Shown here: positions 3,505 through 13,105 of the stretch, piece by piece
How the letters are laid out: every line of letters starts with the position of its first letter
Position numbering within the stretch: the stretch's first letter is position 1
Origin: a virus
Direction: 5' to 3' (one strand)
Virus record (IMG/VR): IMGVR_UViG_3300010413_001256
Coordinates: 1 to 33,070 of that record
DNA length: 33,070 bases
The notes under the pieces: model-generated
What the model was told of the DNA's origin: nothing
The model's database searches: none
The model's input: the letters and a program-made list of their open reading frames with translations, nothing else
Made by a program: the position numbers and the translations under genes

Positions 3505-3514
3505 AAAATCTTAC

Positions 3515-3543
3515 TTGACACGACACCGCTACTGTGATATACT
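3515..3543 (+). promoter_or_regulatory. Strong sigma-70-type promoter
   Basis: TTGACA (3515-3520) is separated by exactly 17 bp from TATACT (3538-3543), with a TGA extended -10. The start would be near 3550. It shares TGTGATAT around the -10 with the promoter at 5278. It drives the structured leader and the downstream zinc-ribbon/primase genes. Confidence 0.85.
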
Positions 3544-3549
3544 GTTTTT

Positions 3550-3720
3550 AAGTGGCTCTGGCGGGCCAAATTCAAGCGGGGGCTATTATCTTAACTCCAT
3601 ATCGGCACATCTTGTTAGCGGTTGACCAGCCCGTAACAATCCCCGCTATAGGTTGGGCAACCGCCAGGGTCAACCGCTAACCAGAGTGCCGATTTAGTTA
3701 CCAGAAAGGAAACCCACGAT
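3550..3720 (+). ncRNA. Structured RNA-like leader or non-coding RNA, unknown class
   Basis: No coding frame is convincing here, while self-complementarity is extensive. Arm 3601-3608 (ATCGGCAC) pairs with 3686-3693. Inside it 3614-3627 (GTTAGCGGTTGACC) pairs perfectly with 3668-3681 (14 bp). The 40-nt terminal loop holds a small hairpin (3651-3662, GGTT/AACC with GGGC loop). Within that loop, CCCCGCT (3641-3647) is complementary to AGCGGGG upstream of the stem (3575-3581), a pseudoknot-type pairing. CTGGCGG (3558-3564) can also pair with CCGCCAG (3661-3667). A perfect promoter lies just upstream, and an AGAAAGGA ribosome site (3703-3710) follows the outer stem. It may be a riboswitch-like leader, a trans-acting RNA or, at DNA level, a replication origin. 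I do not recognise a known class. Confidence 0.65.
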
Positions 3721-3721
3721 T

Positions 3722-4015
3722 ATGCCTTGTGACCACGATGAAAAGCATTGGCAGGATTTGATAAAAGCCTCACAACCCAAAAAACACACCATTTGCAAGC
3801 ACTGCGGTAAGCCAGCGGATATCACGGAGCAATGTGATGATTGTTGGGAAGTTACAGCGCGCCTTGATGACATCAAGCGCGTTGCGCTTTTTAGTGAGGA
3901 ATTCACTAGGCAACTTCTAGACATCGTTGTTGAGTCTGGTATGCTTGCCGACTATCGCATTAGGGGTGATGAACCTAAGGTGTTCACTAATGCTTGGTGG
4001 AAGCAGGCTTGCTAA
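3722..4015 (+). CDS. Small zinc-ribbon protein
   Basis: The 97-aa product starts at ATG 3722, 11 nt after AGAAAGGA. Cys25, Cys28, Cys38 and Cys41 give C-x2-C-x9-C-x2-C, a compact zinc ribbon, preceded by a C-D-H-D-x3-H segment that might add ligands. The C-terminal half is helical (residues 45-75). It is the first gene after the structured leader, so it is the most likely target of any cis-regulation there. The stop TAA overlaps the next ATG (TAATG). It probably binds nucleic acid or protein; function unknown. Confidence 0.6.
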   Translation: MPCDHDEKHWQDLIKASQPKKHTICKHCGKPADITEQCDDCWEVTARLDDIKRVALFSEEFTRQLLDIVVESGMLADYRIRGDEPKVFTNAWWKQAC

Positions 4016-4218
4016 TGACAGAACCAACCAGACCCCCCGATATGACACTTCACGTTTGGGTAGTAGAACACGGCATAGAGGCGGCGATTTTGCGCGGAGA
4101 CGAAATAGTGTATTCGTGGGCGCGCGATTTCGCCGGTTCTTATACAATAGAGATGCTGTTACAGAGCCTACAGCAAGCATTGTGGCAAACGCTTGAAAAG
4201 TGGCGGAAAGGTCTATGA
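4015..4218 (+). CDS. Hypothetical small protein
   Basis: I prefer the ATG at 4015, which overlaps the previous stop codon as TAATG, over the in-frame GTG at 3994. The product is 67 aa. It has a beta-strand-like part with V-W-V-V-E-H-G-I-E-A-A-I-L-R-G and a C-terminal helix (L-Q-S-L-Q-Q-A-L-W). No family is recognised. It is translationally coupled between a zinc-ribbon protein and a primase-polymerase, so a replication accessory role is possible but unsupported. Confidence 0.5.
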   Translation: MTEPTRPPDMTLHVWVVEHGIEAAILRGDEIVYSWARDFAGSYTIEMLLQSLQQALWQTLEKWRKGL

Positions 4219-4237
4219 CGCGAAAAGAGGCTATGCT

Positions 4238-5281
4238 ATGTCAGCACAAATGTTAAACGCCGCACTTGAATATTTCGATATGGGGCTATCAGTAATCCCA
4301 ACAGAGCCAAAAGGCAAAAGACCGGCGATTGATTGGGAAAGATATATGTATGAGCGCGCCGAAAGGGATGAAGTTCTAAAGTGGTTCGGCAACGGTCACG
4401 AAAACAATGTTGGTATAGTACACGGCGCGGTCTCAAACAACTATATAGTTATTGATGTAGACGGCGATAGTGGCATTTTTATGAAAATGAGAGAAGCGTT
4501 TTCTGAGATGTTTTCAGGGCGCTATATTATTTCCGGTTCACGTCGCGGATATCACGTGCCACTATGGTTGGGCGAGTTGCCAAACTTCGGAACAACTGAG
4601 AGAGACGGTGTTGTTCGGCCAATAGGTAGCAGGGCTTGGAAAACCGAATTCGGTTCGGTAAACATCCGGTCTCAATTTTGCCAGTCACTAGCGCCGCCGT
4701 CTGTACATCCATCGGGGCAAACATACGATCTTATGCAAGGCGGGTCAATCACTTGGTTGCCTAATCTTGATGACTTTATTCTTTGGGTTGCGCAATTTGA
4801 AGTGCAGACTGAGAACCTTAAAAAGAACGCGAAGTTACGCGGGCAACTCCAAGAAAGCGGAACACAATTAAGCGGAGACTTGCTAACGCGCGTATTGACG
4901 GTTTGGGACACAATTGGTATCATAGACTACTTTGGCTTAAACCACAGCGGGACAAAGCCAGAAAGAACGGGCGAAACAAGATACTTAAAGAATGGCGGCT
5001 TACTAGTAAAGCCAGACAACTTGCAATGGTATTGCTTTGAGGCCCAACAGGGCGGCGGGCCTGTCGAGATGTGGGCTTGGCAACGAGAGGGGCACTACAA
5101 TCACGCCCACTTTAGAAAGTATATCGTAGAAATGGCTTGGGCCGCTGGACTTGATTTAGAGGCCTTGCTTGTGCGCTCAGACTGGAAATACCTTAGGGGA
5201 ATAGAGCGTGAGGGCGGAGATCGCAACAGATGGACAAAGAGATACAGTGAGTTGCTACCACAGCCCGCCGCACTTGCTTGA
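4238..5281 (+). CDS. PrimPol-type DNA primase/polymerase (bifunctional primase-polymerase N-terminal family)
   Basis: The start at ATG 4238 has AGAGG 7 nt upstream; an upstream in-frame ATG at 4193 would overlap the previous gene and lacks a site. The 347-aa product opens with the usual family pattern: A-L-x-Y-x-x-M-G-L-S-V-I-P, a P-K-G-K-R-P-A-I-D-W segment, the catalytic D-V-D at Asp73/Asp75 (V-I-D-V-D-G-D), the S-R-R-G-Y-H motif with His106, and P-P-S-V-H-P-S-G at 153-160. These residues bind the metal ions and nucleotide for primer synthesis. The C-terminal 150 residues are less familiar and lack a helicase ATPase; the helicase is a separate gene at 7102. It should prime phage replication together with the initiator and helicase downstream. 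Confidence 0.85.
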   Translation: MSAQMLNAALEYFDMGLSVIPTEPKGKRPAIDWERYMYERAERDEVLKWFGNGHENNVGIVHGAVSNNYIVIDVDGDSGIFMKMREAFSEMFSGRYIISGSRRGYHVPLWLGELPNFGTTERDGVVRPIGSRAWKTEFGSVNIRSQFCQSLAPPSVHPSGQTYDLMQGGSITWLPNLDDFILWVAQFEVQTENLKKNAKLRGQLQESGTQLSGDLLTRVLTVWDTIGIIDYFGLNHSGTKPERTGETRYLKNGGLLVKPDNLQWYCFEAQQGGGPVEMWAWQREGHYNHAHFRKYIVEMAWAAGLDLEALLVRSDWKYLRGIEREGGDRNRWTKRYSELLPQPAALA

Positions 5282-5306
5282 CAAATATTCTATAGTGTGA
5301 TATTAT
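5278..5306 (+). promoter_or_regulatory. Strong sigma-70-type promoter
   Basis: TTGACA (5278-5283), a 17-bp spacer and TATTAT (5301-5306) with TGA just before the -10. It overlaps the stop codon of the primase gene and precedes the membrane-protein gene at 5340. It resembles the promoter at 3515 through TGTGATAT and a C before TTGACA. Confidence 0.85.
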
Positions 5307-8580: not shown

Positions 8581-8687
8581 GACACGTTGCCGCCTTAGAC
8601 AAGTTATCACCACGCATCGGAAATTTATCAATAAGGAGTCTGACTGTCTACCTACGAGACGCTTCGAAAGTGTTGAGGGACACTTAA
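8577..8687 (+). CDS. Possible 36-aa leader peptide or gene remnant
   Basis: An ATG overlaps the helicase stop (ATGA) and opens 36 codons ending at TAA 8685-8687, with residues such as L-D-K-L-S-P-R-I-G-N-L. The same frame has a second TAA at 8697 and is then open for 43 protein-like codons to 8828. This may be a decayed gene of ~84 codons, a real tiny protein, or coincidence. I see no family. Confidence 0.25.
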   Translation: MRHVAALDKLSPRIGNLSIRSLTVYLRDASKVLRDT

Positions 8688-8835
8688 GAAGTGGGATAAA
8701 AAGGCAATCCAAAACCGAACAACCGTGAGCACGAGATACGCAAATTTTACAATCCGAACCGGGGTGATAGCTTGTTTAAGGCGGCAACAAACGATACGTA
8801 TAACCAGTTAAAACATACCAAAGAAAGGTGATCTT
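8688..8835 (+). other. Gap without convincing gene
   Basis: The interval between the helicase gene and the gene at 8836 contains two in-frame stops in the frame of the 36-aa ORF, a small 6-bp hairpin upstream (8667-8684, AAGTGT/ACACTT) and no clear promoter. It ends in a GAAAGGTGAT ribosome site for the gene at 8836. Confidence 0.4.
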
Positions 8836-9366
8836 ATGACTAGCCAATACCTGATTGACGGAACACTCAAAATGTGGGAAGAGTGGGAACAATGGGTGCA
8901 ACCAAACGCGTTTGACGGTACGCTGTTTTTGACGACTGAGGCTATAGAGGCCCTGATTGCTATTGGGTTTCACCCAGAGCACACCAACTTGCTTACACCA
9001 ACTGAAATTTCTATTATCGCTTTCCTTGCCGCCGTTCGCCGTGTTCTAGAGCAGGTGCTCAGAGACAAAGCATATGTCAGAAATAACGATAAGGCGGACT
9101 ACGGGGCAAATTCGCTTGGTGTTCACGCGAATGTTGAAGATGTTGTAAACGCTGTGTTACACGCGTTAGACAATCTAGATTTGACGGCACCCGAAACAGC
9201 CGCTTCAGAGATCGGTGACGCTAACCTGATGACACACGTTATAGCGCGTACACTGGGCGTTGATATCACCGAAATAGTCAACGAGAAGCTAGAAATTATG
9301 CACCAAAAAAGAAAGCAACGCGCGCTAAAATTCATTGAGCCTAACCCCAGGCACAAGGAAGTATAG
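8836..9366 (+). CDS. MazG-like helical protein (possible nucleotide pyrophosphohydrolase)
   Basis: The 176-aa protein starts at ATG 8836 with a GAAAGGTGAT ribosome site. It is all-helical. The C-terminal part reads E-I-G-D-A-N-L-M-T-H-V-I-A-R-T-L-G-V-D-I-T-E-I-V-N-E-K, then L-E-I-M and a basic end, quoted here in two pieces. It closely follows the end of MazG-type pyrophosphatases (E-L-x-D, hydrophobic helix, L-G-I-D, E-K-x-x-x-N-x-x-R). The first metal-binding E-E-x-x-E helix is not obvious, so it may be a divergent or inactive relative. MazG-like proteins are common in phages and hydrolyse nucleoside triphosphates or alarmones. Confidence 0.45.
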   Translation: MTSQYLIDGTLKMWEEWEQWVQPNAFDGTLFLTTEAIEALIAIGFHPEHTNLLTPTEISIIAFLAAVRRVLEQVLRDKAYVRNNDKADYGANSLGVHANVEDVVNAVLHALDNLDLTAPETAASEIGDANLMTHVIARTLGVDITEIVNEKLEIMHQKRKQRALKFIEPNPRHKEV

Positions 9367-11261: not shown

Positions 11262-11568
11262 ACTGCTTATAGCAGGTTCGCCAAGCATCGCAAAAGACCC
11301 AGAGAGTGATGACCGGGTTGCGTGCTGGCTAGATAGTTTGTTGATGTATGTCGATAAAAATGAAGTCGAGATTATAGTCAACACTAGGTTTTTGCCCGCG
11401 CAACTGTGGGCCAGAGAACGCGGATATACAGAAAGAGTCGAAGCGGGTTATTATGCCGTGTTGTTCTGGGATGGTGTTGATGAAGAGATATCAACGCTAC
11501 GTAACCATCTTAACCGAATGGGCATACAATACCGCTTTGTGCGGTATGATATACGGGGTAGCTGTTAA
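11245..11568 (+). CDS. SLOG-superfamily (YspA/DUF2493-like) protein
   Basis: The 107-aa protein starts at ATG 11245 after AAGGTGGA, overlapping the previous gene by 17 nt. It shows the expected order: L-L-I-A-G-S-P-S-I, then L-D-S-L-L, then E-V-E-I-I-V-N-T, a helix with A-Q-L-W-A-R-E-R-G, then A-V-L-F-W-D-G-V and a helix and strand ending M-G-I-Q-Y-R-F-V. The final F-W-D-G motif is characteristic of the DUF2493/YspA group of SLOG proteins, which bind nucleotides or nucleotide-derived ligands. The glycine-rich loop (normally G-G-A-x-G-A-D) is replaced by N-T-R-F-L-P-A, so ligand binding may differ. It is the last + strand gene before the convergent junction. Confidence 0.55.
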   Translation: MKRPYKLLIAGSPSIAKDPESDDRVACWLDSLLMYVDKNEVEIIVNTRFLPAQLWARERGYTERVEAGYYAVLFWDGVDEEISTLRNHLNRMGIQYRFVRYDIRGSC

Positions 11569-11570
11569 TA

Positions 11571-11599
11571 CGGAAAGACCCGCCGAAGCGGGTCTTCCG
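11571..11599. terminator. Hairpin at convergent junction (bidirectional)
   Basis: GACCCGC (11577-11583) and GCGGGTC (11588-11594) enclose a CGAA tetraloop, extended by CGGAA/TTCCG with one bulged A. It begins 3 nt after the stop of the last + strand gene. No T-run follows on either strand. Confidence 0.6.
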
Positions 11600-11619
11600 C
11601 CTGCATTGGTGGGGGGTAG

Positions 11620-11665
11620 CCAACACAGGGGCTAGGCTGATTTTGTAGCCTAGCCTCTATGTTGG
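11620..11665. terminator. Second long hairpin at convergent junction
   Basis: 19-bp arms (11620-11638 with 11647-11665; one mismatch and one G-T pair) around an 8-nt T-rich loop. The stop codon of the - strand gene (11657-11659) lies in the arm. With the hairpin at 11571 it likely stops or processes both converging transcripts. Confidence 0.6.
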
Positions 11666-12733
11666 TGCTCCCCATTCCTGCCTTAGATACGTTAGATATT
11701 GAGCGGCAAAGCGAACGTCTTCGAAAAATACAAAATCCCCGTTCGGCGTCATAACAGTAGCGCCAGAGCCTAGCCCGCAGGTGCCTCTAAACCCCATACG
11801 TCGCGCGTACCCATCGTCTGTTTTGTATGTACCAGTAACCAGGGCATAGCGCCGTTTCCTGTGGCGATGGAACGGGCGCAACCACGTACCAGTGTGAAGA
11901 TGTCCGCCAACCCCGATATCAAAGTCAGTGTCACCACGTTCCCAACCAACCTCTATGCCGTGGCTATCATTAAAGATTGAATATCCGCGCCACTGATGAC
12001 GAACCTTAACGACCCAGGAAACATCACCTATGGTAAGTGTGAATACAACTTCGTGTGGGTCATAGAGTAGCCGGGTGCCTTTTAGGGCTTCAGCTATACT
12101 ATCTCGACCGCTTAAGATATATTCCCAATTGTCGTGGTTTCCGGGCACGGCCCACAGCAACTTATCACCCAGTATCTTTAACAGATCAAGCCCTAACCTG
12201 ATTTCATCTTCTATTGATAGGCGCTGGTTTCTAGCCTGTGCCTGTAGACGACCAATTATCCAATTGTCGCCCAAGTCACCGTGAAAACCGCCGTAGAAAC
12301 CCTTTGTGTTAGCTACAGTTATAAAATCGGTGTGTGCGCTCACATAGTCTACGTGCGGTGAGCCAATGTGTATATCACTGAACCATCCTATAGCAATCGG
12401 CACATCTGGTAATTTTATAATCTGTCCGTCGCGTTTCTCTTGTCGCCTTTCCTCTTCTTTCTGCCTGTTTTTGGCGCGTTCCCACAATTCCTCTATGGGT
12501 AGCATTTCTTCAGAATAGTCAGGCGTTATACCCTCTATGTAAACCTCTCCGTCTTCCCCTGTAAAGTGTCCTGAACCATCACCTACCTCTAAGCCCCTTG
12601 CCTTTGCCCATTGTTTCCAATCCCGTATGGTACTTGCCGCTCTATCGTACTTTAATGACAACTCGCTAGTGCTCATAACATATGTGTCGCGCACAAACTC
12701 TTCTATTCTTTTTTTCGGTGGCTTGCCAGCCAT
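11657..12733 (-). CDS. Calcineurin-like metallophosphoesterase with N-terminal helix-turn-helix
   Basis: The 358-aa protein has a full set of metallophosphoesterase motifs: D-I-H (Asp120, His122), G-D-x-x-D-N (Asp153, Asp156), G-N-H-D (198-201), a His at 246 and G-H-L-H (277-280). These bind two metal ions for phosphate ester hydrolysis. Residues about 20-46 (S-T-S-E-L-S-L-K-Y-D-R-A-A-S-T-I-R-D-W) look like a helix-turn-helix, then a charged linker leads to the catalytic domain. Such phage enzymes can be nucleases or phosphodiesterases; the substrate is unknown. It is the last gene of the late block, starting 15 nt after the response-regulator gene ends, and its stop lies in a hairpin. The HTH may direct it to DNA. 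Confidence 0.8.
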   Translation of the reverse strand: MAGKPPKKRIEEFVRDTYVMSTSELSLKYDRAASTIRDWKQWAKARGLEVGDGSGHFTGEDGEVYIEGITPDYSEEMLPIEELWERAKNRQKEEERRQEKRDGQIIKLPDVPIAIGWFSDIHIGSPHVDYVSAHTDFITVANTKGFYGGFHGDLGDNWIIGRLQAQARNQRLSIEDEIRLGLDLLKILGDKLLWAVPGNHDNWEYILSGRDSIAEALKGTRLLYDPHEVVFTLTIGDVSWVVKVRHQWRGYSIFNDSHGIEVGWERGDTDFDIGVGGHLHTGTWLRPFHRHRKRRYALVTGTYKTDDGYARRMGFRGTCGLGSGATVMTPNGDFVFFEDVRFAAQYLTYLRQEWGAPT

Positions 12734-12748
12734 AAAACGTTTCTCCTT

Positions 12749-13105
12749 TCACCCCATAAATTGATGGATGTGTGCTAGTAGCTCTTTGGCGTCAACCGGC
12801 TTTTGTAGATAGTGACTAGCGCCTGCTTCAAGCGCCCTATCTTTGTACTGAGGGTAAGCCGTAACCGCTATGATCGGTACATTAGCATCAAACTCCCTTA
12901 TGCGCCTGGTAGCTTCTATCCCATCGTATACGGGCAATCGGATATCCATTATTATCAGGTCTGGGCAAAGCAACCTTGCTTTTCTAACACCTTCCGGGCC
13001 TGATTCCGCCGTTATTACTGTTATGCCCTTTCCGCCGATCTCGACAATAGACCTAAACAAATCTTTAAGTTGATCTTCTACGATTAGAACCGTTCTTTTT
13101 TTCAA
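12749..13105 (-). CDS. Stand-alone response-regulator receiver (REC) domain
   Basis: The 118-aa protein is a complete receiver domain and nothing else. Conserved residues are all present: the acidic pair Glu10-Asp11, the phosphoacceptor Asp54 (L-I-I-M-D-I-R-L-P), Thr82 (I-A-V-T-A-Y) and Lys102 (Q-K-P-V-D). It should accept a phosphoryl group from a histidine kinase; none is encoded nearby, so a host kinase would be the donor. It has no output domain, like CheY or Spo0F. The start overlaps the stop of the membrane coiled-coil gene by 4 nt, and the HTH-phosphoesterase follows. Such genes are unusual in a phage morphogenesis block; it may be host-acquired. Confidence 0.85.
   Translation of the reverse strand: MKKRTVLIVEDQLKDLFRSIVEIGGKGITVITAESGPEGVRKARLLCPDLIIMDIRLPVYDGIEATRRIREFDANVPIIAVTAYPQYKDRALEAGASHYLQKPVDAKELLAHIHQFMG

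Follow-up and report, generated by a model that had tools for sequence, protein, structure and literature searches.

In the window, by which we mean the whole 33,070-base virus record analysed here, the + strand bears the early genes, for a RuvC-like resolvase, zinc ribbon, Prim-Pol, O-like initiator and DnaB-like helicase. The late genes, for a capsid of the E type and a tail tube, are on the − strand. A gene for a response-regulator receiver domain, unusual for a virus, was also observed on the − strand (12749–13105; PF00072, E 1.5e-23). One of the few large intergenic gaps of the window, 217 bases at 3505–3721, precedes the zinc-ribbon gene and is the subject of this study.

The gap holds a sigma-70-type promoter on the + strand (TTGACA-17-TATACT, 3515–3543) with a TG before the −10 box and a predicted start at about 3550. 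A previous annotation made from the letters alone, hereafter the sequence-only reading, had called this promoter perfect; with 11 of 12 consensus matches it is very good but not perfect. The first gene (3722–4015, +), preceded by a Shine-Dalgarno-like AGAAAGG (3703–3709, +), encodes a protein of 97 aa that is zinc-ribbon-like by sub-threshold matches. The hairpin described below lies immediately 5′ of its ribosome site. The gene itself does not lie just before the primase, as had been stated: a 67-aa ORF (4016–4219, +), whose start overlaps the preceding stop, intervenes between it and the Prim-Pol family primase/polymerase gene (4238–5281, +; PF09250, E 4e-17). A second near-consensus promoter (TTGACA-17-TATTAT, 5278–5306, +) was noticed where the primase gene ends; it precedes a gene for a DUF1360 membrane protein.

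The same segment had been described as devoid of a good coding frame. One frame is nevertheless open from a GTG at 3552 for 42 codons, with a codon score of 4.4, a value that real genes also show and that slightly exceeds the 95th percentile for spurious open frames (3.5). If translated, this frame (3552–3680) would end inside the 3′ arm of the hairpin described below and might couple translation to hairpin opening. However, it has no Shine-Dalgarno sequence, its first codon lies 2 nt away from where transcription is predicted to begin, an in-frame stop immediately precedes it, and no relatives were found. We find a leader peptide scarcely credible.

A long hairpin in the leader

The 8-bp outer stem (3601–3608/3686–3693) and the 14-bp inner stem (3614–3627/3668–3681) proposed earlier are both exact. 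A UCU/AGA step (3610–3612/3683–3685) fuses them into a single helix of 25 Watson-Crick pairs, with no G-U pair, one bulge and one mismatch. Its 5′ arm (3601–3627, +) and 3′ arm (3668–3693, +), each identified by folding and exact complementarity, enclose an apical region of 40 nt (3628–3667, +). The 4-bp loop hairpin GGTT-GGGC-AACC of the sequence-only reading is present in this region, but two of its bases are also used by the pairing of 3661–3667 (see below). The leader is highly structured, as had been claimed: its folding energy was −69.8 kcal/mol (z −3.7), and none of 200 dinucleotide shuffles folded as low. Of the mid-range inverted repeats in the window, the hairpin is one of the strongest, but it is not the most stable fold, 8586–8788 and 11521–11690 being stronger. 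Promoter and stems lie exactly where they had been placed. The feature is real and non-random.

A stem without G-U pairs is also what a DNA inverted repeat would show, and the neighbourhood of primase genes would suit a cruciform origin, a primase start site or a protein-binding repeat. The 7-mer ACCGCTA occurs in the promoter spacer and again in the stem arms. This 7-mer is, however, common in the window (13 sites), and the promoter reads straight into the element. Neither iterons nor tandem repeats were found near it and the local GC skew does not change, so that the suggestion of an origin is left unsupported. A role as DNA element is in our view extremely unlikely.

Two ordered complementarities between leader and loop

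Two segments located 5′ to the stem are exactly complementary to segments of the apical region. CTGGCGG (3558–3564, +), which we designate a1-like target, matches the a′-like antisense CCGCCAG (3661–3667, +), located flush with the 3′ arm (gap 0). Similarly, the b1-like target AGCGGGG (3575–3581, +) matches the b′-like antisense CCCCGCT (3641–3647, +). Both 7-bp pairings had been recognised before, and correctly, but the supposed competition between them disappeared on inspection: since their order is a-b-(stem)-b′-a′-(stem), they are collinear, nest and are compatible with each other. A pseudoknot within one molecule, as then proposed, is conceivable, but we prefer to see here a target and an antisense part that share one transcript. 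A small 5′ hairpin of 4 bp, UGGC-UCUGGCGG-GCCA (3553–3568, +), could present a1 in its loop, a position like that of a1 in P4 and N15, but when 3550–3600 (51 nt) is folded the structure of lowest energy is a different one.

Judged on duplex energy only, this pairing stands out modestly from shuffled sequence (69 or 115 of 2000 shuffles). In the window the loop pairs with the ribosome binding site no better than expected by chance (z +0.5 against shuffles), and masking of this site by the loop was rejected for that reason. Downstream of the hairpin, no second target pair (a2/b2) was found with one mismatch in total allowed, and the 19 nt separating b1 from the stem contain neither a terminator nor a T-run.

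We then compared the element with sequence models. No Rfam family matched the leader, and at E ≤ 10 only a chance mir-34 was reported. Across the window, C4 (RF01695, gathering threshold 45 bits) gave no match at gathering or at E ≤ 10, c4-a1b1 (RF03163) none at E ≤ 10, and the isrK-type leader terminator (RF01394) none either. No riboswitch or ribozyme of Rfam was reported in the leader at E ≤ 10, and no convincing hammerhead core was seen in the window. The strand order does not fit HDV- or twister-like topologies. The earlier statement that no known riboswitch or ribozyme class is recognisable holds for sequence models, but not for architecture, which is C4/CI-like.

An undescribed riboswitch or self-cleaving ribozyme, built around the pseudoknot, would be consistent with a strongly structured 5′ leader and compatible pseudoknot pairings, and the related phage G005 described below has a hammerhead-like core at a similar leader position. 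Against it stand the empty Rfam result and the topological strain that full-length a/a′ and b/b′ pairing would impose within one molecule; moreover, the layout already has a precedent. We therefore regard this possibility as very unlikely.

Comparison with the C4 and CI RNAs of P1, P4 and N15

C4/CI RNAs set phage immunity. In the annotation of the P1 record (NC_005856), a1 (48255–48261) and b1 (48269–48276) are followed by C4 (48343–48419), a2 (48423–48429), b2 (48452–48459) and icd, from 48470. P1 resembles the leader in its a1 of 7 nt, b1 of 8 nt, C4 hairpin of 77 nt and target gene start at most 51 nt away, as well as in an a′ (CUGUCAA) flush with the 3′ arm and a b′ in the loop. It differs in that P1 C4 represses translation via a2/b2 at icd, a pair not found in the present leader, and in its downstream genes, icd/ant in place of zinc ribbon/primase. 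The UUCG-type hairpin 1 of C4, located between the 5′ arm and hairpin 2 in P1 and P4, is missing from 3628–3640 of the window.

The P4 CI region is recognised in Rfam by C4 (74.9 bits), c4-a1b1 and isrK. CI RNA pairs with seqA and seqC, and expression of the replication genes in the lysogenic state is blocked by premature termination (PMC4825925). As in the leader, a promoter is followed by a1, b1 and a closed stem whose loop contains b′ and ends in an a′ that abuts the 3′ arm, and the whole heads an operon with a phage primase. In P4, a1 lies in a hairpin loop and b1 is single-stranded. P4 has in addition an isrK-type terminator, which separates the targets from CI, and a seqC farther downstream; its stem has 17 pairs. 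The window element has 25 pairs, no terminator, no seqC that we could find and no match to a sequence model. The N15 element, independently called C4 by Rfam (78.8 bits, with a c4-a1b1 match), shows the same part order and was recovered by the layout scan described below; it differs from the leader in the same respects as P4 and lies upstream of antirepressor genes.

The C4 layout was thus found in the leader: a long closing stem of 25 pairs around an apical region of 40 nt (28–60 nt in the layout), an a′ complementary to a1 and directly 5′ of the 3′ arm, and an apical b′ complementary to a b1 lying 3′ of a1. In other words, the leader shares the C4-type build with the P1, P4 and N15 RNAs but no detectable sequence.

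Search by layout and chance controls

The layout was converted into a scanner, which looks for a stem with 15 or more pairs (13 or more of them Watson-Crick) that closes a loop of 28–60 nt. A 7-mer (a′) no farther than 2 nt from the 3′ arm must be complementary to an a1 that lies upstream, and another 7-mer (b1), situated 3′ of that a1 by at most 30 nt, to the loop. A first version missed P1 and P4, and the thresholds were then loosened a single time so that G-U pairs and longer leaders were accepted; both versions detect the window element. The control phages (lambda, T7, P22, N15, P4 and all of P1; about 234 kb together) yielded only the annotated C4 RNAs of P1, P4 and N15. The leader element was the single match in the window, and nine further loci (94 kb) gave none. 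An inverted repeat in locus L014, the strongest additional match of the first, looser scan, was rejected as coding sequence.

Locally shuffled versions of the window gave 25 matches in a first run of 50.6 Mb and 22 in a second of 54.5 Mb (47 in about 105 Mb), or about 0.015 per window. None of the matches of the second run had 18 or more Watson-Crick pairs, against 25 in both the window and G005 elements. When the hairpin was kept fixed and the 5′ segment shuffled, the a1 + b1 rule was satisfied in 19 of 40,000 trials for the window and 56 of 40,000 for G005. These numbers are supportive but no blind test, because the a1/b1 rule was framed after the window and G005 leaders had been read; the independent part of the test lies in the C4 RNAs of P1, P4 and N15 and in the phages that gave no match.

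A similar leader in the distant relative G005

Phage and plasmid collections contained no close relative with a usable DNA match, and searches of viral and genome contigs with primase, helicase, capsid, zinc ribbon or stem pattern returned only a few distant viruses. One of them, surfaced by the capsid search, is G005 (IMGVR_UViG_3300042731_008413), a virus of 83 kb with homologues of the window capsid (55%), primase (38%), helicase (28%), tail proteins and other genes. The scanner reported a single place in it, a C4-like leader on the − strand ahead of the replication genes (57362–57151; region L011 17151–17400, about 57397–57151 of G005).

As in the window, a consensus promoter (TTGACA-17-TATAAT) stands in front, and the genes downstream on the same strand include O-like, DnaB-like and Prim-Pol genes. 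The 5′ segments a1 (TGACACAA) and b1 (GGACGAG(GAAATG)) are again complementary to segments of the hairpin loop, and a′ is flush with the 3′ arm of a 27-pair stem. In contrast, the two leaders have no sequence similarity and are not alignable. The G005 loop has an additional pairing of its own (CCGGCAA/UUGCCGG), and its stem is followed by U7, unlike that of the window; because of this U7 the G005 leader could double as a terminator. The loop segment CATTTTCTCGTCC (b′) pairs at 11 of 13 positions with GGAGGGTAAAATG at the start codon/ribosome site, a value equalled by shuffles. Consensus promoters of G005 mostly have short leaders, and structured ones were seen at only two.

These data bear on another reading, a leader acting only in cis, whose 25-bp hairpin would be an RNase III site and/or an mRNA stabiliser, with the 5′ pairings incidental or forming a cis switch. 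The lambda N leader and the T7 early intergenic hairpins are precedents for such sites upstream of a ribosome site. The stem would be suitable: its Watson-Crick pairs run almost without a break through roughly two turns of helix, and it stops 9 nt short of the Shine-Dalgarno sequence. Further long intergenic hairpins exist in the window (8586–8788) and in G005. But this explanation does not predict that, in both phages, the leader should match the loop in two 7-bp stretches of set order, one of them flush with the 3′ arm; we hold it to be unlikely although worth keeping in mind.

Proposed mode of action

We favour, as the probable interpretation, a divergent C4/CI-like antisense RNA module heading the phage replication operon. 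The suggestions of a new leader regulator and of a trans-acting RNA therefore pointed in the right direction, since the parts are arranged as in C4/CI, which are leader-derived trans-acting RNAs. The leader would work like C4/CI without being a member of RF01695; we limit the claim to this likeness because an Rfam match, a2/b2, the terminator and the UUCG hairpin are missing and the duplex energy is modest.

By analogy with P4 and P1, transcription from the promoter at 3515–3543 (start about 3550) would produce a leader with the targets a1 and b1, while the hairpin 3601–3693 would display the matching b′ and a′. The hairpin would be released, or accumulate, as a small stable RNA, whose a′ and b′ could pair in trans with a1 and b1 on transcripts newly made by a copy that is resident or replicating. 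The zinc-ribbon gene, the primase gene and those that follow in the operon would thereby be expressed less, resulting in copy-number-like or superinfection control. With neither a nearby terminator nor a2/b2, this lowering might involve Rho-dependent termination, altered processing or decay.

The C4 RNAs entered in Rfam by a 2010 survey were from Proteobacteria and phages only (PMC2864571). Antisense immunity RNAs are perhaps under-counted: two unclassified phages match the layout without giving any sequence signal, each at its replication operon, which is also where the P4 element lies. We tentatively raise the possibility, which we would not yet call probable, that antisense leaders of C4 layout and freely drifting sequence are a hidden, widespread control of replication operons in phages outside the known C4 group, maybe of more than one origin and invisible to models built on sequence, such as the C4 model of Rfam. 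Such viral self-control switches may thus occur in more phages than sequence searches reveal. A simple way of finding them would be to search for the interleaved a1-b1-stem-b′-a′-stem pattern in place of sequence.

Other structured elements in the window and in G005

A second, stronger structured non-coding element of the window (8586–8788, +) is located between the helicase gene and an ORF at 8836. Its 36-nt arms, 86% complementary, surround 131 nt, with a folding z of −6.9; Rfam gave no match at a useful level, and upstream a/b pairing is absent. A bidirectional stem (11620–11665) lies between the converging early and late blocks, where the window has its most stable fold.

In G005, a hairpin with 25-nt arms (L012 14971–15079, −) ends directly at GGAGG-ATAAA-ATG; no a/b pairing was found there. 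Another element of 193 nt (L012 16371–16563, +; about 76370–76562 of G005) has a perfect 21-bp closing stem and sits behind a TTGACA-17-TATTAT promoter, ahead of an ORF. Not reported by Rfam, its hammerhead-like core reads GCGA-CUGAUGA-GGAG..CUCC-GAAA-CAUA..UAUG-UA-UCGC.
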